Counted from the first letter of the stretch, positions 24,167 through 37,361 are shown. The stretch is DNA of 44,497 nucleotides from Candidatus Hinthialibacteria bacterium OLB16 (GCA_001567115.1 LMZT01000178.1:68472-112968); one strand, 5' to 3'. The notes: generated by a model from the sequence alone, not told the origin. Made by a program: numbers and translations.

Positions 24167-26787
24167 TTACTGGGAAGCGAGGAAACAGACTGCCTTTTGA
24201 TGCCTCGGATCCGCCAGCACCTGGACCCGCAACCCTCGAGTCACCTCAGGAATATCGATCAACTTGACTACATCTTCGAAATCTTTCACTTCCGGGCAGA
24301 AGGCCGCCAGAGAATTCCGGCTTTTTTCAAAAAAACCCGCATTGAACTCGGCAGCCGGATCGGACGGAAAGACCGGAAGGTAAATGATCTTCGCCTCGAC
24401 CAGATCCTGGAAGAAGTGAGTCCCATAGGACACTTCGGGGGCATGTCCCGCCTCTTCCTTTCCGACCTCCACCAGGACCGAGGTGTTGTTGATATCCCCA
24501 TAGGAGACATTGACTCCCATGCTGATGTTGCTCGAACCCCATCGTCCAGGCCCCACCATGATGCATTTTCCTGTTTGAATGGTGGGATGGGCATTGATCT
24601 TTCCAACCACCCTGCCGATAGACCTTCTTCTTTCGTCGCTCTCAATCGAGGCATAAGCAGATGGATCGATGAATACCACAAAACGGACATCAGCGATTCT
24701 GCCACCACTCATGATTCGGTTGGCACGAAACAGGACTTTATCCCGGGGGATATCCTCGGACACCTCCACCTCGCCACCTTCCATGCCGGGAAGAATCATC
24801 GGACGGCATTGGAGAAGATTGAAACGGACCCGGTTGTCCGAGCCGATGAAGGCGGTAAATTCTGTATCGATCGGGATGCCGTAAGCCTTTTCGAGGGTTT
24901 CCAGCATCCTGCCGATCAGTGGTATCAGGCTGGTCTGCCTGATCAGGTTGCTGAAAGTCAGAACGATTCCATCAATATCCGAATCAAAATAGGATGACGA
25001 GGGATCCGAAAGGAATCCATTCCGGATGGTCGATATCAGCAGGTGCTCATTGGGATATTCTCCCCGTCCAAGCGCCTCTTCGACTGGACGGGTCACAAGG
25101 GCATTCTCATCCAGATCGAGGAGGTCCATCTCCTTCTGGGAATATTTCACCACTTCAAAGCCGGTTTCCGGACGCAACTCCGGCTGGCTGACGGAAACAT
25201 CCTGGGGTAATCGAAATTAGTCCGGTCAACTGCGCGGGTTCCCAGGCCAAATACAAGCCGAATCATCCCTTTGCTGCGATCGATCCGGTCTGTCCAGGCA
25301 TACAGATTTTTCGAGAATGCAACTCCCGCCAGGCTGGGGAAGAAGGTTCGGCGGAAAGGCATCCCGGAAACACGCTGGACCAGAAGACCCATCTGTTCAT
25401 CGCTCTCGGCCAGTCCGCGTTTGCGCCGGTATGAAAGGGCATTCGGATCGAGCGCGCTGGCGTAAACCTGTTTGACTGCTTTCAGAAATGCCTCCATGCG
25501 CTGCTCGGGTGAACCCTGGTTGGTGCAAAATTCACTGCGGTATTTCCCGGCAAAGGCATTTCCGAAGCTGTCTTCGAGCAGGCTGCTGGAGCGGACAATG
25601 ATCGGTGCCTGGCCAAAGTATTCCAGCATGTTCTGGAACTGGTTCATGACTTCACGCGGAAAGGTTCCCTCCAGGAAACGTTCCTCGATATCCTCAAACT
25701 CAGCCTGCGAAGTCTGTTCGGCGCGTGATAGCTGCAGCCGTAAACGGAAGAGGTCGTTGTTCACCAGGAAAGTGAAGAAGACATCGGAACCGATGAAGAA
25801 TGAGTCATGATCCTGGGTCGAAGCACGGTAGACATCCTCACCCCACTGCTTGCGCAGAATTTTCCGGGCCAGCAGCATGCCCAGCGCTTTTCCACCGATC
25901 CTTCCAGACCCGACAATTCGGTTGCGTATCGCAAAGAGGTCTTCGAGAGTGAAATACTCATCAGAAAGCCTTACAAAATCCGGGTGGTTGCCGAGAAGCA
26001 TGCGGGCGAGTTCCTGCTTGAGCGACAGGGTCTCCGGCTGTGAAACGATGACTTCTTCAGGCTGATCGCTGTACTGCAGGAGCCTCCGGTAGACAGAATC
26101 CCAGGGGGCAATCGATTCGGCTCCGGTACGGAGCGGATTTTTATGGGCAACCGAAGTGATTTCGGCTGCGTCGCCGCTGTGGATGACCGGAACCAGCTCA
26201 TGCTCGGTCACCTCGTTTGGAAGGAACATCCGTGACGAATAACGCCCCCAGACTTTGACCGCATGGAAAATCAGCTGATCTCCGGCATGATGCAGGTTGA
26301 TCAGCAGCTGGGTTGTATCGCGAATCCGGGCGACTGTTCCATCCTCATGTTTCCCCAGTTTGAGGGCGAAATAGGCGACTGTATCGAGCTCATAAAGATA
26401 CGGGCAGGTGATCTGGAAAAAGTTGGCCAGCAGTTCATCTGTTGCCCATTCGGCTACGAGATGCGACAGGTTATCGAAAACATAAAAGGCTTCATGCCCT
26501 CTTTTTTCGATAATCCGGTGAACCGAGGAAGCAAAGGGATCGAAACCGATGGCTGGATCGAGTTCGATCACATCGATTTGAGGATGAGGGGCCAGAATCG
26601 GCGGGTGGGAGGCAAAGCGCATGTAGACACACTTGCGCCCATCCCGGATGGCCTGAGCCATAAAGGGCTGTGCAAAAGCAATGTAGTCATCCAGCTCATC
26701 AACCTGCCAGACGACGTTATCTCCCAGACGAATTCCCTGCAGGACTTCATCGAGAGAGGGAATTCCGCTGAGGATTCTCCGGGACAC
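24167..26787 (-). CDS. KaiC-like domain fused to PEP-synthase-like ATP-grasp domain, one frameshift
   Basis: 873 residues after restoring one base near 25183-25193. I chose GTG 26787 because GGGAGG lies 11 bp upstream and the protein then begins exactly at the fold (SRRILSGIPSLDEVLQGI); ATG 26865 would overlap gdh by 35 bp. Residues 1 to about 230 resemble a RecA/KaiC fold, but the expected P-loop is replaced by WQVDELDDY, so ATP binding there is doubtful. From about 290 comes the PEP synthase/PPDK N-terminal domain: GSGRIGGKALGMLLA, PIIVRSSSLLEDSFGNAFAGKY and VFGLGTRAVDRT. The C-terminal part has VGPGRWGSSN and YGTHFFQDLVEA. No phosphohistidine swivel motif (TSHAAI type) and no PEP barrel are present. 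It belongs to a known but uncharacterised family; position suggests a role with the adjacent GDH. Confidence 0.8.
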
Positions 26788-26830
26788 CTGATTCGTTTCC
26801 TCCCTATAGCCGGCGGGATGCCTGTGGAGG

Positions 26831-28078
26831 CTAAATTCTCCCACGTATCCGCATGGCTTCGACAACCCGTGTCACAGCAACCACATAGGCCGCTTTCCGC
26901 AAATTGATATTGAACCTTTTCGAGGCATCCAGAACGGCATGGTAGGATGCCGTCATTTTCTTATCGAGGCGCTCATGGACCATCTCCTTGTCCCAATGGT
27001 ACATGTAGGCATTCTGGACCATTTCAAAATAAGACACAGTGACCCCGCCGGCATTGCACAGAAAATCCGGGATATGGTGGATCCCTTTCTTGTGAAGGAT
27101 GGCATCGGCCTCCGGGGTTGTGGGGCCATTGGCCAGTTCCGCCAGGATGCGTGTTTTCAACCGCGGCGCATTGACATCGGTAATGACATTTTCAATGGCT
27201 GCTGGAATCAGGATATCGACATCCAGCTCGAGGAGCTGTTCATTGCTGATCGGTTCGGTTCCGGGAAGGCCGACGACAGATCCGGTCATGGCCTTGTACT
27301 TCCTGACCGCTTCAGGATCGAGGCCGGCAGGATTCATAATCCCCCCACGGCTGTCGCTGACAGCCACCACCTTGGCGCCAAACAGGCTCACACTCAGCAG
27401 CGAGGCAAAATATCCGGCATTGCCAAACCCCTGCACAGCGACACGTGAGCGGGCCAGATCCACTCCACAAATCTTAGCCGCTTCACGAATTGTATACATG
27501 CCGCCACGCGCAGCGGCATCAGCCCGGCCAACCGATCCACCGATTGCCAATGGTTTGCCGGTAATGACGCCAAACTGGCTCTGGCGGAAGATTTTGAAAT
27601 ATTCATCCATCATCCAGGCCATGACCTGCGGGTCGGTGTAGATATCAGGAGCTGGAATGTCCTTCTCCGGGCCGATGAAATCGATGATCGAGTCGATGTA
27701 AGCACGGCTCAGGCGTTCGAGCTCTCCCCGTGACATCTCTTTCGGATTGCACATGATTCCACCGCCTGCCCCGCCGAGAGGAAGGTCAAGAAGGGCGCAC
27801 TTCCAGGTCATCCAGGCAGCCTGGGCACGCATGGCATCAATGGTTTTATCCGGATGGAAGCGAATGCCGCCTTTGGTTGGCCCTTTGGCATCGTTATACT
27901 GGATGCGGCAGCCGGTGAAGACACGTGTCGTTCCATCATCCATGCGAACCGGCAGCGATACATGAATCTCCCGCATCGGGTGCCGAAGCATGGCATGAAC
28001 TCCCGGATCAAGACGCAGAATCTCTGCGCATTCGGCAAGTTGTTTGTCGGCGACATCAAAAGAACTCACTCCAGCCAT
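26831..28078 (-). CDS. Glu/Leu/Phe/Val dehydrogenase paralogue lacking the catalytic lysine
   Basis: 415 residues, the length of NAD-type bacterial GDHs. The fold motifs are present: TKGGIRFHP with K69, TWKCALLDLP with K93, PAPDIYTDP with D145, and the dinucleotide site VQGFGNAGYFA. The segment that normally reads GGAKGG or GGGKGG, whose lysine is catalytic (K125 in Clostridium symbiosum GDH), reads GGAGGG here. The lysine is Gly105, codon GGC at 27766-27764. More than one base differs from a lysine codon, so this is not an indel artefact. The protein probably cannot oxidise glutamate and may be a regulatory or structural subunit, perhaps with GdhA encoded two genes upstream, as Thermus GdhA regulates GdhB. 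The next gene starts 43 bp downstream. Confidence 0.9.
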   Translation of the reverse strand: MAGVSSFDVADKQLAECAEILRLDPGVHAMLRHPMREIHVSLPVRMDDGTTRVFTGCRIQYNDAKGPTKGGIRFHPDKTIDAMRAQAAWMTWKCALLDLPLGGAGGGIMCNPKEMSRGELERLSRAYIDSIIDFIGPEKDIPAPDIYTDPQVMAWMMDEYFKIFRQSQFGVITGKPLAIGGSVGRADAAARGGMYTIREAAKICGVDLARSRVAVQGFGNAGYFASLLSVSLFGAKVVAVSDSRGGIMNPAGLDPEAVRKYKAMTGSVVGLPGTEPISNEQLLELDVDILIPAAIENVITDVNAPRLKTRILAELANGPTTPEADAILHKKGIHHIPDFLCNAGGVTVSYFEMVQNAYMYHWDKEMVHERLDKKMTASYHAVLDASKRFNINLRKAAYVVAVTRVVEAMRIRGRI

Positions 28079-28190
28079 GGTACTCCTCCTGGATCGTGTT
28101 TGGTTTCTGCCTGCTTAATTGGCCAGCCCCTGGAATCAGATCTCTGATCAGGTTTCAAAGGGGCAGCAGATTGCACTCCTCAGCCGGGCG

Positions 28191-29069
28191 TCAGGGACGC
28201 CAATAATCCTCATGCTCAGCTGGCAGGTCACTGGGTTTGCTCGATTCTTTGGCAGCGCGTTTAGACCTGGAACTTCCTTTGTCCTGCCGATAGATCGGTG
28301 CAGGCCTCCAGGCTTCCCGGTACAGGTTTGCGAGCGCATCCGTTTCAGATGGAAGATGAGAGGGCTTGAAGCCGATGCGTCCCAGCCCTCCCTCTCCAAT
28401 CACATGCTTGAGAAATTCCCTCTGGAGCTCCTGAAAGCAGAGATCCAGCATCCACTGGCAGGTCTCCAGGGCTTCTGTCTCATGCCCCTCAGCGCAGCAG
28501 TTGACCGCGATATTCTGAAAATCGATGGCCAGATTCCTGCCACCAGGCCCGGTGATGTTTCCGATCCGGTCCGAAGCCTGCCGGCAGACCTCCAGGGCGT
28601 CATCGATCCGCCTCTGGAAGCAATACACCATGGCCAGATGGTGCAGGCTCATGTGGTAAATTTTGGTGTTGGCTTTGGGAACTTTGGCGAAAGCGGCCTT
28701 CTCCTGGATTTCCAGAGCCTCACGGTAAGCGGATTCGGCACGGCTGTAGTCCTGCATGACATGGTACAGCAGGCCGATCAGGTTCAGGCTGCTGCAGATT
28801 TCCAGAGACTCAGCTCCCAGCAGCAGGCGTTCCTGGGTGAGAGCACGGCTCAAATAGTTCTCCGCTTCCGGCAGCCGCCCCAATGCAAAAAAGAAAACAC
28901 CGATTGTTTTCAGCTGGTGTATCGTATAGGCATTGGGCTGATGAGCGGTTTCGGCCTCCCTGAGTGCAGCCAGAAAGGATTCTTCAGCCTTTGTGTAATC
29001 ACCTTTGCGGAGTGATTTTTCACCCGCTTTCCGGTTCTCCATCATCCGTGAGTAATCCACGGTCTCCAT
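28191..29069 (-). CDS. Tetratricopeptide-repeat protein
   Basis: 292 residues, cytosolic, with no signal peptide. At least four TPR units are visible by their small-residue pattern: GEKSLRKGDYTKAEESFLAA, IGVFFFALGRLPEAENYLSR, IGLLYHVMQDYSRAESAYRE and LAMVYCFQRRIDDALEVCRQ. A fifth region (AVNCCAEGHETEALETCQWM) is more divergent. The C-terminal 50 residues are basic, serine-rich and probably disordered. TPR proteins act as protein-binding scaffolds. It lies between gdhA (61 bp upstream) and the GDH paralogue (112 bp downstream) on the same strand, so it may bring the two dehydrogenases or another partner together; this is inference. Met9 and Met10 are alternative starts. Confidence 0.78.
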   Translation of the reverse strand: METVDYSRMMENRKAGEKSLRKGDYTKAEESFLAALREAETAHQPNAYTIHQLKTIGVFFFALGRLPEAENYLSRALTQERLLLGAESLEICSSLNLIGLLYHVMQDYSRAESAYREALEIQEKAAFAKVPKANTKIYHMSLHHLAMVYCFQRRIDDALEVCRQASDRIGNITGPGGRNLAIDFQNIAVNCCAEGHETEALETCQWMLDLCFQELQREFLKHVIGEGGLGRIGFKPSHLPSETDALANLYREAWRPAPIYRQDKGSSRSKRAAKESSKPSDLPAEHEDYWRP

Positions 29070-29130
29070 CCTGCCTTTCGTTCAGACCATCGGCCGAGCT
29101 GAACTCTCGACCATTGAATCCGTTAGGAAA

Positions 29131-30561
<1,431 letters not shown>

Positions 30562-30590
30562 TCATGAGCCCTCAATATGGAAGATTCCTG

Positions 30591-30604
30591 CCATATATAT
30601 ATGG
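30591..30604. promoter_or_regulatory. Palindrome just downstream of predicted gdhA transcript start
   Basis: CCATATATATATGG is a perfect 14-bp palindrome. It would cover about +7 to +20 of the gdhA transcript if the promoter assigned at 30618-30647 is right, a classic repressor position. AT repeats can be palindromic by chance, but the CC/GG caps make that less likely. Confidence 0.4.
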
Positions 30605-30617
30605 TACTCTGCTGCCA

Positions 30618-30647
30618 ATATTAAAAGTATCTTTCCAGTGTTGTCAA
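30618..30647 (-). promoter_or_regulatory. Candidate promoter of gdhA
   Basis: On the minus strand, TTGACA (30647-30642, a perfect -35) is followed 18 bp later by TAATAT (30623-30618). The predicted transcript start is near 30611, giving a leader of about 140 nt before ATG 30471. The palindrome at 30591-30604 lies just inside the leader. Confidence 0.45.
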
Positions 30648-30684
30648 TAGAATATTTCCATGATTCGGCCGTAATTCAATCAAT

Positions 30685-30703
30685 ATTAAAATGGAATTTT
30701 AAT
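30685..30703. promoter_or_regulatory. Dyad, 8-bp arms
   Basis: ATTAAAAT and ATTTTAAT flank the spacer GGA; the arms are perfect. It is the first of three dyads between the gdhA promoter and the nrpR-like start codon. Confidence 0.4.
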
Positions 30704-30720
30704 GGAAAAAATGATTCTAA

Positions 30721-30739
30721 AATTCCTGTATTGGAAATT
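30721..30739. promoter_or_regulatory. Dyad with TTCC-N6-GGAA core
   Basis: AATTCC, six bases, then GGAAATT. The core is TTCC-N6-GGAA, the mirror arrangement of the GGAA-N6-TTCC operator known for methanogen NrpR. Its centre is about 30.5 bp from the next dyad, roughly three helical turns, so proteins on both would face the same side of the DNA. Confidence 0.42.
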
Positions 30740-30751
30740 TTAATCAAATAC

Positions 30752-30769
30752 TTCCAAAGATATTTGGAA
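30752..30769. promoter_or_regulatory. Dyad TTCCAAA-GATA-TTTGGAA
   Basis: Perfect 7-bp arms with a 4-bp spacer, carrying the same TTCC/GGAA half-site letters as the dyad at 30721-30739. It lies about 90 bp before the GTG of the nrpR-like gene and could serve autoregulation. Confidence 0.45.
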
Positions 30770-30858
30770 AAAGAAATGGAATTGATCCATTTATTCCTTG
30801 CAATGCAGGGCGGCTTTGTGCCAGAATAACCAGGAAGATTTGACCCGGGATCCATCCA

Positions 30859-31878
30859 GTGAAAGATATCCAGACACGCCAGAAAATTGCCATACTTCGT
30901 GTTCTTAAAGATGCTTACGATCCGGTTGGCAGCAGCCAGATCGCAGAAGAACTGAAATCCCATGGGTTTGAATTGTGCGGCCGGACCATTCGCCTTTACC
31001 TGCAGGAAATGGAACAGGAAGGGCTGGTAACACCCGCCAAAAGGGGGCGTGATGGCGGCCGCACCCTGACCTATCTCGGCCATGAGGAAGTTCGCAATGC
31101 CCTGGTCAAAGAACGTGTCAGCCTCCTGGCCAGCCGTGTGGATTCTCTCGCCAGCCAGGTGACTTTCGATCCGGTCACTCGACAGGGGCTGGTAGCGCTC
31201 AATCTGACTCTTCTCGACCGCCTGCACCTCCCCGGAGCGATCCGAGAAATCCTGCCGGTTTTCCGGGATGGGATGTCCATGGGGCGTCTGGTGGCGTTTG
31301 GAAGGCCCGGAGAAACTATCGGCGGATTCCTGATTCCGCCTGGCAAGGTCGCAGTCGGAACTGTATGCAGTGTCACTCTCAATGGGGTCCTGCTGGGATC
31401 GAGGGTTCCAACAAGGTCGCTGTTTGGTGGTGTCCTGGAGATCGAAAACAAAACGCCCATCAGGTTTTCCGATGTCATCTTTTACAGTGGAACTTCGCTC
31501 GATCCGCTCGAGGTGTTCATCAAAGCCAAGCTCACCACAGTCCGCAAAGCCGCACGAACTGGAAGCGGACGCATCGGGGCGGGGTTTCGGGAGTTTCCTT
31601 CTTCAGCCCTCCCGGAAGTGGAACGAGTCAGCCAGCTGATGCATGAAATCGGTGTCGGCGGCTGCCTTATGATAGGAAAACCCAATCAGGCTCTCCTCGA
31701 TTTTCCAGTTGAGGAAGACCGCACCGGGTTCCTGATCAATGGGGGCCTCAATCCGATGGCCGCAGTCGAAGAGGCTGGCTTTCCTACTGCCAGCCATGCC
31801 CTTTCCACCGTATTCGATTTTAACAAACTGATCCACTATGAAGAATTGGTGGACCTGGTCATGCGGGAAGAGTATTGA
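30859..31878 (+). CDS. nrpR: NrpR-like nitrogen regulator (winged helix plus one NRD/DUF128 domain)
   Basis: 339 residues from a GTG start; GGGA lies 8 bp upstream and no better start is seen. Residues 1-70 are the ribonuclease-R-type winged helix (HTH_12): QKIAILRVLKDAYDPVGSSQIAEELKS cut by the recognition region CGRTIRLYLQEMEQEGLV. From about 85 to 335 follows one NRD (DUF128) domain with RDGMSMGRLVAFGRPGET, PPGKVAVGTVCSVTLNG and FGGVLEI, ending in NGGLNPMAAVEEAG. In methanogens NrpR represses nitrogen-assimilation genes and leaves DNA when 2-oxoglutarate rises. Methanococcus NrpR has two NRDs; single-NRD forms occur in bacteria. Its position opposite gdhA supports direct control of glutamate synthesis. 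The convergent sulfatase stop is 4 bp away. Confidence 0.87.
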   Translation: MKDIQTRQKIAILRVLKDAYDPVGSSQIAEELKSHGFELCGRTIRLYLQEMEQEGLVTPAKRGRDGGRTLTYLGHEEVRNALVKERVSLLASRVDSLASQVTFDPVTRQGLVALNLTLLDRLHLPGAIREILPVFRDGMSMGRLVAFGRPGETIGGFLIPPGKVAVGTVCSVTLNGVLLGSRVPTRSLFGGVLEIENKTPIRFSDVIFYSGTSLDPLEVFIKAKLTTVRKAARTGSGRIGAGFREFPSSALPEVERVSQLMHEIGVGGCLMIGKPNQALLDFPVEEDRTGFLINGGLNPMAAVEEAGFPTASHALSTVFDFNKLIHYEELVDLVMREEY

Positions 31879-31882
31879 AGCC

Positions 31883-33217
31883 TCACCTTTTGCCCGGTGG
31901 GAGATCACCGAGCGAGGCTTCGAATGCCTGCATCTCCTGTTCCATCTGCTTCACCCGGTCCGGGAATTTATCGGCCAGATTGTTCTTTTCAGAAATATCA
32001 TCGCTGATATGGAACAGCATTGTCGGGAGGAGATCAGGTTCATTGACTGTTTTTTCCACAGAGGCCCGTTTCAGCTTCCAATCACCTGAACGGTACGCCT
32101 GGAGATTTTCCCGGTGAAAAAAGAAAAAGTTTTGGCTGGCACGGTGTCCATTCCCGAGCAGGATCCCTCGAATATCCTCGCCATCCAGGACTGGATTCTC
32201 CGGAAGTGTTCCCCCTGACAAAAGAAGAAATGTCGGGAAAAGATCGAGATTGACCGCCGGTTCATCGGTCACCCGGTTGGGAGCAATAGTTCCTTTCCAG
32301 CGGAAGATGCCAGGTTCCCGGACACCTCCTTCAAAGGTTGTTCCTTTTCCATTGCGGAGTGGCCCGGCACTGCCGCCATGGTCCTTCATGATCAGCCAGG
32401 GGCCATTGTCACTGGTGAACACCACAAGGGTCTTCTCATCCAGGTGCAGGCGTTCGAGGGCTGCCAGAATCTGGCCGACACTCCAGTCGATTTCCTCGAC
32501 AACATCTCCATATAAACCCGAGGCGGAGTGGCCTTTGAATTCCGGGGAGACATGCAGCGGAACATGCACCATGGTATGCGCCAGATAAAGAAAGAAAGGC
32601 TGGTCTTTCTGTGCTTCGATGAAACCCACCGCCTCCTCGGTGTAGCGCCGTGTCAGTGTGTCCTGATTGGCTGGTTGCTCGATGATGGCCTCATTTCGCA
32701 TCAATGGGAGCGGGGGTTCTGCCCGCTGGACGAGGTCCATGTCATTGCTGTATGGGATTCCAAAGTAGGAGTCGAAACCATGACGGGTGGGAAGAAACTC
32801 GGGAAGGTGCCCCAGGTGCCATTTTCCGATGCAGGCAGTCGAGTAGCCTCGTTCCTTGAGGCCTTCCGCGAGAGTCCACTCTTTGTCCTCGATCCCATCT
32901 TTGCTTGAAGGAAAAAGGACACGTGTCAACCCGCTGCGTATGGGGTAACGCCCGGTCAGCAGGCCCGCCCGCGAAGGGGTGCACACCGGGCAGGAGGTAT
33001 AGAAGCTGGTAAAACGGAGGCCCTCCGCTGCCATCCTGTCGATGTTGGGAGTTCTTGTGGTGGTGTTGCCATAACAGCCCAGGTCACCATACCCCATATC
33101 GTCAATGAAGATGATGATAAAATTCGGAGTGGAGGTTTCCGCACGGCAGGAGGATGGCAATCCCAATTCCAGATGACAGATTACGATAAACACAATGAAC
33201 AGGGAGGCGGGTCTCAT
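31883..33217 (-). CDS. Secreted sulfatase (arylsulfatase A family)
   Basis: 444 residues with an N-terminal signal peptide (LFIVFIVICHLELGL, then SSCRA). Hydrolyses sulfate esters in the periplasm or outside. The metal site begins IIIFIDDMGYGDLGCYG (D39, D40). The sulfatase signature is CTPSRAGLLTGR with C79, the cysteine converted to formylglycine, and the second signature GYSTACIGKWHLG is present. VFTSDNGPW gives the later metal ligands. The C-terminal subdomain (YRSGDWKLKR, LFHISDDISEKNNLADKF) is complete. The formylglycine-generating enzyme or anSME maturase is not in the window. It runs opposite to the iol operon and convergent with nrpR, so its regulation is not evident. The likely substrate is a sulfated glycan. 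Confidence 0.92.
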   Translation of the reverse strand: MRPASLFIVFIVICHLELGLPSSCRAETSTPNFIIIFIDDMGYGDLGCYGNTTTRTPNIDRMAAEGLRFTSFYTSCPVCTPSRAGLLTGRYPIRSGLTRVLFPSSKDGIEDKEWTLAEGLKERGYSTACIGKWHLGHLPEFLPTRHGFDSYFGIPYSNDMDLVQRAEPPLPLMRNEAIIEQPANQDTLTRRYTEEAVGFIEAQKDQPFFLYLAHTMVHVPLHVSPEFKGHSASGLYGDVVEEIDWSVGQILAALERLHLDEKTLVVFTSDNGPWLIMKDHGGSAGPLRNGKGTTFEGGVREPGIFRWKGTIAPNRVTDEPAVNLDLFPTFLLLSGGTLPENPVLDGEDIRGILLGNGHRASQNFFFFHRENLQAYRSGDWKLKRASVEKTVNEPDLLPTMLFHISDDISEKNNLADKFPDRVKQMEQEMQAFEASLGDLPPGKR

Positions 33218-33500: not shown

Positions 33501-35360
33501 ATGAAAACCAGGCGTTTGACAATGGCACAGGCATTGATCGGCTTTCTCAAGAACCAGTTTGTGGAGAGAGATGGCATCCAGAATCCGTTTTTTGGCGGGT
33601 GTTTTGGAATTTTCGGGCATGGCAATGTGGCGGGAGTGGGTGAAGCCCTTCAGGAGAACCCTGATTTCCGTTACTACCAGTGCCGGAATGAACAAGCCAT
33701 GGTCCATACTGCATCCGCTTACGCAAAGATGAGCAATCGTTTACGCACCATTGCCTGCACCACCTCGATCGGGCCAGGTGCCACCAATATGCTCTCAGGC
33801 GCCGCACTGGCAACTGTCAACCGCCTGCCGGTGCTTCTCCTGCCGGGCGATATTTTTGCGAAGAGAAAGGTCGCTCCAGTGTTGCAGCAGCTTGAAAGCG
33901 AACACACCCAGGACATATCGGTCAATGACTGTTTCAGGCCGGTCTCACGATACTGGGACCGGATATATCGACCCGAGCAGCTGATCACCGCACTGCCGGA
34001 GGCCATGCGAGTCCTGACTTCCCCTGCCGATACCGGTGCAGTCACTCTCGCTCTGCCGCAGGACACTCAGACAGAGGCCTTTGATTATCCACGCGAGTTA
34101 TTCGAAAAAAGGATCTGGGTCATCCCTCGGAACCGGCCTGATGCCAGCCTGGTGAATAAAGCCCTGGAATGGATTCGAGCTGCAAAACGGCCACTGATCA
34201 TCGCCGGGGGTGGAGTCCATTACAGCGAGGCCAATGAAATCCTGGCGCAGATCGCCCAGGCCACAGGGATTCCAGTCGGCGAAACTCAGGCCGGCAAAGG
34301 GTCCCTGCACTACCAGCACCCCCAGTCGGTCGGAGCGATCGGTGTGACTGGAACCAGCGCCGCCAACATCCTGGCTGAATCTGCAGACCTGGTGATTGGT
34401 GTTGGCACCCGTTACAGCGATTTCACGACCGCCTCGAAGACGGCTTTCCAGGCCCCGGAGGTTCGTTTCATCAACATCAATGCCGCTGAGTTCGATGCTT
34501 TCAAGCACAATGCCATCCCTCTCGTTGGAGATGCACGGGTCATTCTTGCTGAACTGCATCAGAACCTGGCTGGCTGGAATGTCGGCTCGGGGTATGCCGA
34601 CAAAATCGAAAAACTCCGAACCGATTGGGACAACGAAGTGGAACGCCTCTACAACCTCGGGCATCAGCCACTTCTCAGTCAATCGGAGGTGGTTGGTGCG
34701 GTGAATACCTTTTCAGCTCCGACAGATGTCATGGTGTGCGCCGCGGGAAGCCTGCCGGGAGATTTGCATAAACTCTGGCGGACTCGAGACCCACGTGGGT
34801 ACCACCTGGAGTATGGGTATTCCTGCATGGGATATGAGATCGCCGGGGGCCTCGGAGTCAAAATGGCAGCCCCGGAGAAAGAGGTGTATGTGCTTCTGGG
34901 GGATGGCTCCTATCTCATGATGTCCACGGAAATTGTGACCTCGATCCAGGAAGGCTGCAAACTCATCATTGTCCTCCTTGATAACCATGGTTATGCGAGC
35001 ATCGGTGGGTTGTCTGCCGCCTGCGGGAGCCAGGGATTTGGAACCCGTTATAAATATCGCGATTCCAGAGGCAGCATCAGCGGAAAAGACCTGCCAATTG
35101 ATTATGCCGCCAATGCCTCCAGCCTGGGTGCAATCAGCTTGAGGGCAAAGAACCTGGATGAACTCAAAGCAGCTCTCGCCACTGCCCGGGATCAGGATCG
35201 AACCACGGTTATTGTTGTGGAAACCGACATCGATGAGCGTGTACCGGGTTACAACTCCTGGTGGGATGTTGCAGTCGCTGAGGTGTCCTCGATCAAGAGC
35301 GTGCAGGACGCGCGAAAGAAGTATGAAGAATCGGTGCAGAAAGAACGCTACTTCCTTTGA
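33501..35360 (+). CDS. iolD: 3D-(3,5/4)-trihydroxycyclohexane-1,2-dione hydrolase
   Basis: 619 residues, the normal length of IolD, a thiamine-diphosphate enzyme that cleaves the ring of the inositol breakdown intermediate to 5-deoxy-glucuronate. Family motifs include GCFGIFGHGNVAGVGEAL, YYQCRNEQAMVHTA with the ThDP-activating Glu, TSIGPGATNMLSGAALAT and DDIF-like LLPGDIF. The ThDP/Mg site is LLGDGSYLMMSTEIVTS followed by LLDNHGYASIGGLS, and the C-terminal GTRYKYRDSRG is IolD-specific. The start has GGAGG upstream. It is the first gene of an operon with an inosose dehydratase-like gene 25 bp downstream, an inositol dehydrogenase-like gene and an SGNH hydrolase. Confidence 0.95.
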   Translation: MKTRRLTMAQALIGFLKNQFVERDGIQNPFFGGCFGIFGHGNVAGVGEALQENPDFRYYQCRNEQAMVHTASAYAKMSNRLRTIACTTSIGPGATNMLSGAALATVNRLPVLLLPGDIFAKRKVAPVLQQLESEHTQDISVNDCFRPVSRYWDRIYRPEQLITALPEAMRVLTSPADTGAVTLALPQDTQTEAFDYPRELFEKRIWVIPRNRPDASLVNKALEWIRAAKRPLIIAGGGVHYSEANEILAQIAQATGIPVGETQAGKGSLHYQHPQSVGAIGVTGTSAANILAESADLVIGVGTRYSDFTTASKTAFQAPEVRFININAAEFDAFKHNAIPLVGDARVILAELHQNLAGWNVGSGYADKIEKLRTDWDNEVERLYNLGHQPLLSQSEVVGAVNTFSAPTDVMVCAAGSLPGDLHKLWRTRDPRGYHLEYGYSCMGYEIAGGLGVKMAAPEKEVYVLLGDGSYLMMSTEIVTSIQEGCKLIIVLLDNHGYASIGGLSAACGSQGFGTRYKYRDSRGSISGKDLPIDYAANASSLGAISLRAKNLDELKAALATARDQDRTTVIVVETDIDERVPGYNSWWDVAVAEVSSIKSVQDARKKYEESVQKERYFL

Positions 35361-35385
35361 AACGGGATCAACTCTGGAGGAATTG

Positions 35386-36312
35386 ATGGCTCCTGACCAC
35401 AGTCAGAAAATCAGCAGCATCCGAATTGCAAACGCCCCCTGTTCCTGGGGAGTCCTGGAATTCTCACTGGAAGGTGAGGCATCAGGCGCCGAATGTGTTT
35501 TGGCCGAAATGAGAAAAGCGGGATATGAGGGGACGGAATTCGGAGACTGGGGCTTTCTCCCAACAAATGCGGACGACCTCGGGTCCCTCCTGAAATGTCA
35601 CAACCTTCAGCTGGTCGGGGCTTTTATCCCGATAGCATTTGCCAATCCAGCCTGCCTTCCAGAAGGAACCCAGTCGGCTTTAAGGACCGCCAGGCTGCTC
35701 GCAGCAGTTGAACCCAATGCCTTTATTGTCCTGTCGGATGACAATGGGACTGTTCCGGAAAGAATCAGCTGCGCTGGAAGGATCCAGCCTGGCCAGGGGC
35801 TGACAGCAGCTGCATGGAAGCCTTATGGACAGAGAGTTGACCTGGTTGCCCGCCAGGTGCTCGAGGAAACAGGGCTGAGGAGTGTCTTTCATCACCACTG
35901 TGCCGGCTATGTGGAGACAGTGGATGAAATCAACTCACTGCTTGAAGCCACAACTGAAGACCTTGTGGGCCTGTGCCTGGATACCGGCCACCTGGCATTT
36001 GGGGGCGGAGACCCACTCGCAACCTTGAAAAGATACCGAAGCCGAATCTGGCATGTCCATTTCAAGGATTGTTCCGTCCAGGTTGCAGCGAGATCGCAAT
36101 CAGAAAGCTGGGATTATTTCCAGTCTGTGGGCGAGGGAGTTTTCTGTGAGCTGGGATGTGGAAATGTGGATTTTCCAGCGATCCTGGCCGAACTCCACCA
36201 TACTGACTACACCGGCTGGATTGTCGTTGAACAGGATGTTCTGCCTGGGATGGGAACACCTCTCGAGAGTGCCTGCCGTAATCGGAATTATCTCCACACA
36301 CTGGGAGTTTGA
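35386..36312 (+). CDS. iolE: Inosose dehydratase-like TIM-barrel protein
   Basis: 308 residues from ATG 35386 with GGAGG close upstream; the open frame upstream lies inside iolD and is not used. It belongs to the xylose isomerase-like TIM-barrel superfamily. IANAPCSWGVLEF, GYEGTEFGDWGFLP, the metal-ligand segments SVFHHHCAGYVET, LCLDTGHLAFGGGDP and HVHFKDC, and a final EQDV are in the expected order for IolE. IolE removes water from 2-keto-myo-inositol to make the substrate of IolD. Its position between iolD and an iolG-like gene supports the role. The ORF ends in TGA at 36310-36312, three bases before the next ATG. Other sugar-phosphate epimerases share this fold, so the symbol rests partly on context. 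Confidence 0.85.
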   Translation: MAPDHSQKISSIRIANAPCSWGVLEFSLEGEASGAECVLAEMRKAGYEGTEFGDWGFLPTNADDLGSLLKCHNLQLVGAFIPIAFANPACLPEGTQSALRTARLLAAVEPNAFIVLSDDNGTVPERISCAGRIQPGQGLTAAAWKPYGQRVDLVARQVLEETGLRSVFHHHCAGYVETVDEINSLLEATTEDLVGLCLDTGHLAFGGGDPLATLKRYRSRIWHVHFKDCSVQVAARSQSESWDYFQSVGEGVFCELGCGNVDFPAILAELHHTDYTGWIVVEQDVLPGMGTPLESACRNRNYLHTLGV

Positions 36313-36314
36313 AG

Positions 36315-37361
36315 ATGGATGCCACCAGCAGCAGGAAGGTAAGGGTTGGATTGATTGGAGCGGGCAGAATCGGTTCTGTTCATGCCGAGCATCTGGCCTA
36401 TCGCATCGAGGGGGTGGAGCTGGCTGCAATTTGTGATATTCACCTTCCATCGGCTGAAAAATGTGCCAGAAAACTGGATATTCCGATCTGCTCTGACACC
36501 CCGGAAGAAATACTGGAGAATAAAAGCATCGATGCTGTGGTCATTTCGAGTTCGACAGACACACATGCCACGCTGATCCAGGCTGCGGCATATTCAGGGA
36601 AGGATATCTTCTGTGAAAAGCCGATCGACCATGATCTGTCGGGCATCGATGCCGCTCTGGAAGCAGTCAGGAAGGCTGGAGTCCGCCTCCAGATCGGTTT
36701 CAATCGCCGGTTTGATCCGAGCTTTCGCCATCTTCGGGAAAAGGTCCGGTCAGGCCGTGTGGGAACACCTCACTTTGTGCGCATCACCAGCCGGGATCCA
36801 GCACCTCCACCAATTGAATATATTAAAGTTTCTGGTGGCCTGTTTCTGGATATGAGCATTCATGATTTCGATATGGCAAGATACCTCATCGATTCTGAAG
36901 TTTATTCGGTATTTGCCCTTGGTGGAGTTCGAATCGATCCAGCTATTGGGGATGCCGGGGATATCGATACCGCCCTGATATCCCTGCAGTTCGAAAATGG
37001 AGTGCTTGCTTCGATCGATAACAGCCGGCAGGCGGTCTATGGGTATGACCAGAGGATTGAGGTGTTCGGTTCGGAGGGAGTTATCTTAGCGGAAAATGTC
37101 CCGCCTCATCGAACCTTCTGCAGTGACCGAAATGGAGTCCATGGACCGTTGCCCCTCCACTTTTTTATGGACCGGTATATTGACTCATATATCGAGGAAA
37201 TGAGATCTTTTATCGAATCAGTCCGGGCTGGAACCGAACCATCCGTCAGCGGTTCAGATGGAAAAGCTCCGGTGGTAATCGGCCTGGCAGCTCAAAAAAG
37301 CATGATTGAAAAACGCCCGGTTCTGATCAGCGAAATCCAGCAAGGAGTCAACCAGTCATGA
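36315..37361 (+). CDS. iolG: Inositol 2-dehydrogenase-like Gfo/Idh/MocA oxidoreductase
   Basis: 348 residues from ATG 36315, with GGAG 7 bp upstream; a TTG at 36309 would overlap the iolE stop. The NAD-binding Rossmann domain has VGLIGAGRIGSVHAEH (GAGRIG at 15-20). The catalytic Lys is K102 in FCEKPIDHDLSG, and D179 and H183 in FLDMSIHDFDMARYL complete the catalytic set of the IolG family. IolG oxidises myo-inositol to scyllo-inosose, the first step before IolE and IolD. The order iolD-iolE-iolG fits, and the stop overlaps the next gene start by ATGA. Other polyol dehydrogenases of this family cannot be excluded from sequence alone. Confidence 0.83.
   Translation: MDATSSRKVRVGLIGAGRIGSVHAEHLAYRIEGVELAAICDIHLPSAEKCARKLDIPICSDTPEEILENKSIDAVVISSSTDTHATLIQAAAYSGKDIFCEKPIDHDLSGIDAALEAVRKAGVRLQIGFNRRFDPSFRHLREKVRSGRVGTPHFVRITSRDPAPPPIEYIKVSGGLFLDMSIHDFDMARYLIDSEVYSVFALGGVRIDPAIGDAGDIDTALISLQFENGVLASIDNSRQAVYGYDQRIEVFGSEGVILAENVPPHRTFCSDRNGVHGPLPLHFFMDRYIDSYIEEMRSFIESVRAGTEPSVSGSDGKAPVVIGLAAQKSMIEKRPVLISEIQQGVNQS

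Follow-up and report, generated by a model that had tools for sequence, protein, structure and literature searches.

Part of the genome of Candidatus Hinthialibacteria bacterium OLB16 probably encodes a glutamate dehydrogenase (GDH) module that is linked to an NrpR-type repressor and has a dedicated partner protein. The stretch of DNA analysed here (the window, 44,497 nucleotides, G000:C178:68472-112968) belongs to a 4.05-Mb draft genome. The putative partner, FusA, is a fusion of a KaiC-like domain, an ATP-grasp domain and a C-terminal domain, and genes of its family accompany GDH genes far beyond the phylum of the window. The module consists of five genes:

30859..31878, + strand: nrpR, HTH_12 winged helix and one NRD1_2 domain (PF01995, E 2e-71; PF08461, E 1.5e-12)
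29131..30471, - strand: gdhA, NADP-type GDH with the GGGKGG motif, catalytic lysine present (NF006929, 765 bits)
28191..29069, - strand: TPR protein, C-terminal tail with two conserved WRP motifs
26831..28078, - strand: pGDH, archaeal-type GDH with the catalytic lysine replaced by glycine at residue 105 (codon 27766-27764)
24167..26787, - strand: fusA, fusion of KaiC-like, ATP-grasp and C-terminal domains, with a one-base frameshift near 25192 in the assembly

The nrpR gene faces gdhA, and TPR, pGDH and fusA follow behind gdhA on its strand; gdhA starts at about 30471 rather than at the first TTG of its open reading frame (ORF). An earlier note on this DNA had described the five genes as lying together and sharing a theme of nitrogen and carbon balance. 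Both points hold, and ORF calls and profile matches recovered all five. The gaps of 61, 112 and 43 bp that it gave for gdhA-TPR-pGDH-fusA proved exact on recount, and these four genes may form an operon. The literature searched, which leaves most subscription journals uncovered, yielded no paper that deals with the five-gene set or with GDH and a KaiC-like/PPDK fusion.

A scan of genome contigs yielded at least 80 fusion loci. Their carriers include Thermodesulfobacteriota/Deltaproteobacteria, Chloroflexota (Dehalococcoidia), Kiritimatiellota, Planctomycetota, Acidobacteriota, Sumerlaeota, other groups and the archaeon Methanosalsum natronophilum. Among the loci listed, no other gene is nearly as frequent a neighbour as GDH (at least 36), and NrpR (at least 16) and glutamate synthase (at least 14) are also present. 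Further neighbours are gltD, glnA, amtB, carAB, hisFH, a GAF histidine kinase and a sigma-54 activator; the names glnA, amtB and hisF were assigned by reading the sequences. When the count is restricted to genes outside the window's own clade that are flanked by 5 kb or more on each side, GDH lies within 5 kb of 15 of the 26 fusA genes and of four of the five genes of a second type, fusB, which forms a clade of its own (17 rows, support 100). Within the same distance, fusB pairs only with NADP-type gdhA (7/7) and the other fusions only with archaeal-type GDH (25/25), counts that are uncorrected for shared ancestry. Among the signs that the fusion acts together with GDH, this clade-by-clade pairing is the strongest. 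A Lentisphaerae contig carries both a fusA gene and a partial fusB-like ORF, the latter beside gdhA (L057, 20033-22597), a position in line with the pairing rule. In a genome of Acidobacteriota (Bryobacterales), gdhA is followed by two consecutive fusion genes (L104, 2878-5964 and 5993-8623), the first of them extremely divergent.

The link to NrpR is represented by the promoter of gdhA. The product of nrpR, the sole NrpR of the window genome, has both the helix-turn-helix (HTH) and the NrpR regulatory domain, and the region between the two genes contains the following elements:

30642..30647, - strand: gdhA promoter, -35 box TTGACA (TTGACA-18-TAATAT)
30618..30623, - strand: -10 box TAATAT of the same promoter
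30603..30616, no strand assigned: predicted NrpR-type operator 1, GGCA-GCAGAG-TACC on the - strand, directly 3' of the -10 box (expected 0.06 per region)
30579..30592, no strand assigned: predicted NrpR-type operator 2, - strand sequence GGCA-GGAATC-TTCC, at a distance of 24 bp to operator 1

Both sites fit the pattern GGNA-N6-TNCC and are placed just downstream of the -10 box with a 24-bp pitch. Exact GGHA-N6-TDCC sites occur at the gdhA promoter in five of seven genomes, versus 0.03-0.09 expected per region, and near-matches are located at about the same position in the other two; TTGAC, a spacer of 17 or 18 and a -10-like box, read by eye from the sequences, are common to all seven. The tandem form is specific: 14 whole genomes contain five instances of it, against two in the reversed control, and three of the five lie in the gdhA-nrpR interval. 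Unlike it, a genome-wide regulon search with the single operator (39 sites, six in the reversed control) was too unspecific for naming targets and was abandoned. For NrpR loci of other phyla, 44 regions preceding nrpR, fus, gdh or GOGAT genes were compared; N6 sites are present in 18 of them and each of the other spacings from 2 to 10 in 0-3, so that enrichment is seen at N6 only; the fusion gene itself has an upstream N6 site in 6 of 13 cases. Predicted NrpR-type operators thus tie nrpR to gdhA here and to fusion, gdh and nrpR genes in other phyla. NrpR operators of Methanococcus have the form GGAA-N6-TTCC. Those of methanogens are paired, with half-sites six bases apart, like the predicted sites here.

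Other palindromes occur in such regions as well. Several more imperfect TTCC/GGAA palindromes lie nearer nrpR in the AT-rich gdhA-nrpR intergenic region (30680-30790). Just upstream of nrpR, two related loci (L022 and L023) lack exact N6 sites and contain N4-spaced palindromes (TGGTAATATTGCCA and similar), two per region, which are perhaps operators of other spacing or those of another regulator.

As a correction to the earlier note, the fusion gene is split in the window into ORFs 26865-25147 and 25177-24167, the protein being read in one frame from 26787 to about 25192 and in another from there to 24167. In relatives the gene is a single uninterrupted ORF of about 870-900 amino acids. By comparison with them, the split is explained by one missing base near 25192, which may be an assembly error or a recent single-base change. 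A programmed frameshift was rejected as first choice, given the single frame in all relatives. Three domains can be delimited:

26142..26787, - strand: KaiC/RecA-like domain lacking Walker A (transferred by alignment from a model of the G012 orthologue)
24800..26007, - strand: PPDK_N-type ATP-grasp domain with conserved nucleotide-binding residues (profile match PF01326 and G012 model)
24167..24799, - strand: C-terminal domain, weakly like a swivelling phosphohistidine domain, with an invariant histidine in GTHFF (codon 24418-24416)

In the AlphaFold2 model of FusA from the related genome G012 (predicted local distance difference test score, pLDDT, 85), residues 2-219 adopt a KaiC-like fold (Z about 21-22), and residues 264-675 resemble the ATP-grasp domain of rifampin phosphotransferase and phosphoenolpyruvate (PEP) synthase (Z 21-25). 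The earlier description of a degenerate KaiC-like domain is borne out, since the Walker A P-loop is missing in 50 of 50 fusion sequences, with GDNVVWQVD in its place. K303, R402, E646, Q663 and R665 are found in all 50 and D644 in 49; we take these six to be equivalent to the ATP-grasp residues of PPDK and PEP synthase. H794 of the GTHFF motif is likewise invariant (50/50) and starts a helix that is followed by a strand, an arrangement shared by the phosphorylated histidine of swivelling domains. Modelled by itself, the window protein's C-terminal domain reached pLDDT 92. Its sequence retrieved nothing meaningful from PDB and Pfam, and its model gave no Foldseek match below E 0.001. The top rows of a second structural aligner (Z 5-6, a weak score) were largely swivelling phosphohistidine domains, namely those of rifampin phosphotransferase, the extra domain of Staphylococcus aureus pyruvate kinase and PPDK, with EIN-Ntr slightly lower. 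The protein ends after this domain, and profile searches revealed no PEP-utilisers match, hence no PEP/pyruvate barrel. The fusion is therefore not a PEP synthase, and the proposed link to PEP/pyruvate was dropped for want of such a domain, the ATP-grasp and a possible phosphohistidine domain being all that is present.

The second GDH of the locus, pGDH, is closest to archaeal GdhA (NF040817; PDB 1euz, E 4e-157) and is, as had been noticed, devoid of the catalytic lysine. It reads GGAGGG in all six genomes that have it, where active GDHs read GGGKGG; the gdhA product has this lysine and both ELFV domains, and the lysine is present in 20 of 20 GDHs neighbouring fusA outside the clade. The rest of the protein is preserved: the ELFV domains are present and the Rossmann motif is intact, and the substrate-binding residues K69, K93, D145 and S349 (window numbering) are kept in all pGDHs and outside GDHs compared. 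The pGDHs form one clade (Shimodaira-Hasegawa-like approximate likelihood-ratio test, SH-aLRT, 100), nested with ordinary branch lengths among GDHs that neighbour fusA elsewhere, and the ratio of nonsynonymous to synonymous substitution rates (dN/dS) is 0.08, obtained from one unsaturated pair only. Because the exchange is shared, the branches are ordinary and dN/dS is low, we regard pGDH as conserved rather than decaying. The lost lysine is the general catalytic residue of the GDH family (K125 in Clostridium symbiosum, K126 in the bovine enzyme), and from this role pGDH is apparently catalytically dead.

Conservation within the phylum was followed in 14 genomes. TPR, pGDH and fusA have an identical distribution: six genomes (G000, which is the window genome, G003, G004, G005, G006 and G012) possess all three, and the other eight possess none; all six keep the order TPR-pGDH-fusion, and nrpR facing gdhA is widespread in the phylum. 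Because this order recurs in relatives, the arrangement is not a matter of chance. The phylum has two fusion paralogues, fusA (about 70% identical to the window protein) and fusB (about 41%). The order in G012 is fusB-nrpR facing gdhA-TPR-pGDH-fusA; in G003, gdhA faces nrpR-fusB, and fusA-pGDH-TPR follows on the opposite strand. The remaining genomes have separate modules, gdhA/nrpR/fusB (L022, L023, L026, L027) and TPR-pGDH-fusA (L018, L019, L021). There are thus two modules, joined in two of six genomes, plus one rearranged. The neighbourhood proposed by the earlier note is conserved, contrary to the refuting condition that the note had set; a fixed five-gene system it is not, being contiguous in just two genomes. 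The five-gene unit is lineage-specific, and the association of fusion, GDH and NrpR is cross-phylum.

Two further observations concern members of these modules. In contrast to relatives, the window genome has its fusB (L028, 6911-9529, G000:C83) on another contig, remote from nrpR and beside a gene for a TMEM260-like membrane protein. Both WRP tail motifs recur in a second TPR protein (L181/L182, G006:C47:18702-19589), which stands alone behind a UvrD-like helicase gene. A search of 18 fusion-carrying genomes outside the clade for orthologues of the TPR protein returned generic TPR matches only.

NrpR is known to repress through nitrogen operators, and this repression is relieved by 2-oxoglutarate (PMC4902934, PMC9765008). 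We propose that at low 2-oxoglutarate, when nitrogen is plentiful, NrpR would occupy the two predicted operators that closely follow the -10 box and block gdhA, and with it TPR, pGDH and fusA if the four share one transcript; a rise in 2-oxoglutarate would release it from DNA. FusA would serve as a dedicated GDH partner that reads the ATP/AMP state and either passes a phosphoryl group to GDH or sets it allosterically. Action on a GDH partner is proposed because FusA keeps the ATP-grasp and the candidate phosphohistidine domain and has no acceptor domain of its own. In this lineage pGDH, with its lysine lost and its ligand-binding residues kept, would be a regulatory or sensing subunit, coupling occupancy by 2-oxoglutarate/glutamate or NAD(P)H to FusA, and its signal would reach active GdhA through the TPR protein.

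Read loosely, as a GDH module under NrpR control in which the GDH partner depends on ATP and an inactive GDH serves as a regulatory or sensor subunit, this explanation has about an even chance of being right. The specific mechanism is offered tentatively. Equally speculative is its extension to a cross-phylum family of regulators (pseudo-KaiC, ATP-grasp and phosphohistidine-like domains) that would control GDH by ATP-dependent phosphotransfer or allostery under NrpR, the GDH partner in one candidate phylum being a dead 2-oxoglutarate/glutamate sensor joined by TPR to active GDH. Several observations weigh against the proposal. Eleven of the 26 fully flanked fusA loci lack a GDH within 5 kb. 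The phosphohistidine assignment depends on the Z scores of 5-6. The two GDHs, pGDH and GdhA, come from different subfamilies and share only about 31% identity. Finally, no exact NrpR-type site precedes TPR in the genomes with the split arrangement, and the TPR/pGDH/fusA module may therefore not be under NrpR there.

The alternative that survives best, itself no more than possible, is that of a functional neighbourhood only: the nitrogen genes would be co-regulated, and the fusion would be a stand-alone metabolic enzyme with no contact to GDH at any time, such as an ATP-dependent ligase or phosphotransferase whose substrate is glutamate, 2-oxoglutarate or a metabolite related to them. The GDH-free fusA loci would suit such an enzyme, as would the fusions located beside GOGAT, carAB, hisFH and amtB genes and the small-molecule substrates of ATP-grasp relatives such as rifampin phosphotransferase. 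It fits less well with GDH as the commonest neighbour and with the agreement between GDH type and the clade of the fusion, which holds in 32 of 32 cases. Moreover, the fusion has no visible domain for a small-molecule acceptor, and here the pair stayed together even though the partner GDH had lost its catalytic residue.

Mixed hexamers of pGDH and GdhA, exactly like those with regulatory GdhA in Thermus thermophilus, with the fusion as a nucleotide-sensing third component, are an unlikely solution. The precedent exists (PMC9570180), each of the six genomes has exactly two GDHs, gdhA and pGDH, by the search used, and pGDH keeps its ligand-binding residues; but the low identity between separate subfamilies makes a Thermus-like hexamer less likely, and gdhA and pGDH are at different loci in several genomes. 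It is more doubtful still that pGDH is alive with a changed reaction, the loss of lysine having redirected its chemistry or substrate. Strong conservation across six genera, low dN/dS and the intactness of the Rossmann motif and other active-site residues would agree with this, yet the lysine is a general catalytic residue across the family and its loss is the sole change among key residues. Decay of the window locus, for which the frameshift near 25192, the lysine-less GDH and the displacement of fusB to another contig might be cited, is very improbable, as the K to G exchange is common to six genera under purifying selection and, the frameshift apart, both halves of the fusion are intact and conserved, which fits better with sequencing error or a very recent change.

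Outside the module, a sulfatase gene (31883-33217) adjoins an inositol-catabolism-like gene run (33501-37361) that includes a thiamine pyrophosphate (TPP) enzyme, a xylose-isomerase-like TIM barrel and a GFO/IDH/MocA dehydrogenase.

Parts of the proposed system resemble known ones. Rifampin phosphotransferase, PEP synthase and PPDK share the ATP-grasp domain with the fusion, key residues intact, and possibly the swivelling phosphohistidine domain; unlike them, the fusion has an N-terminal KaiC-like domain and neither PEP/pyruvate barrel nor rifampin domain, and its C-terminal domain is divergent and without Pfam match. The first 219 residues share the fold of KaiC/RecA-like ATPases, whose Walker A they lack. 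Thermococcus-type archaeal GDH (1euz) aligns with pGDH end to end, except for the lysine replaced by glycine in pGDH. Methanogen NrpR, which controls nif and glnA, is of the same domain family and acts at the same 2-oxoglutarate node (PMC4902934, PMC9765008); the present one differs in its bacterial host, its predicted gdhA target and a single NRD domain with its own HTH. In the GdhA/GdhB system of Thermus thermophilus, the active subunit is regulated by a catalytically inactive GDH paralogue together with an APRT homologue, which is an AMP sensor (PMC9570180). That system is alike in combining an active GDH and an inactive paralogue with a third protein that descends from an enzyme of nucleotide metabolism. 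Here, however, the third protein is a KaiC-like/ATP-grasp fusion and no APRT homologue, the inactive GDH comes from a different subfamily and has lost its active-site lysine, and a TPR protein and predicted NrpR control are added.

GDH stands at the junction of carbon and nitrogen metabolism, and the locus points to an unstudied control of glutamate synthesis from ammonia. The lineage of the window is a natural experiment, in which the partner GDH lost its catalytic lysine and kept its conservation. Cultured or named carriers of the fusion, such as Desulforhabdus sp. TSK and Methanosalsum natronophilum AME2, make the proposal testable. If true, the fusion family would be a general, unstudied regulator of GDH, found in many bacterial phyla and an archaeon, matched to GDH subtype and placed under a 2-oxoglutarate repressor.

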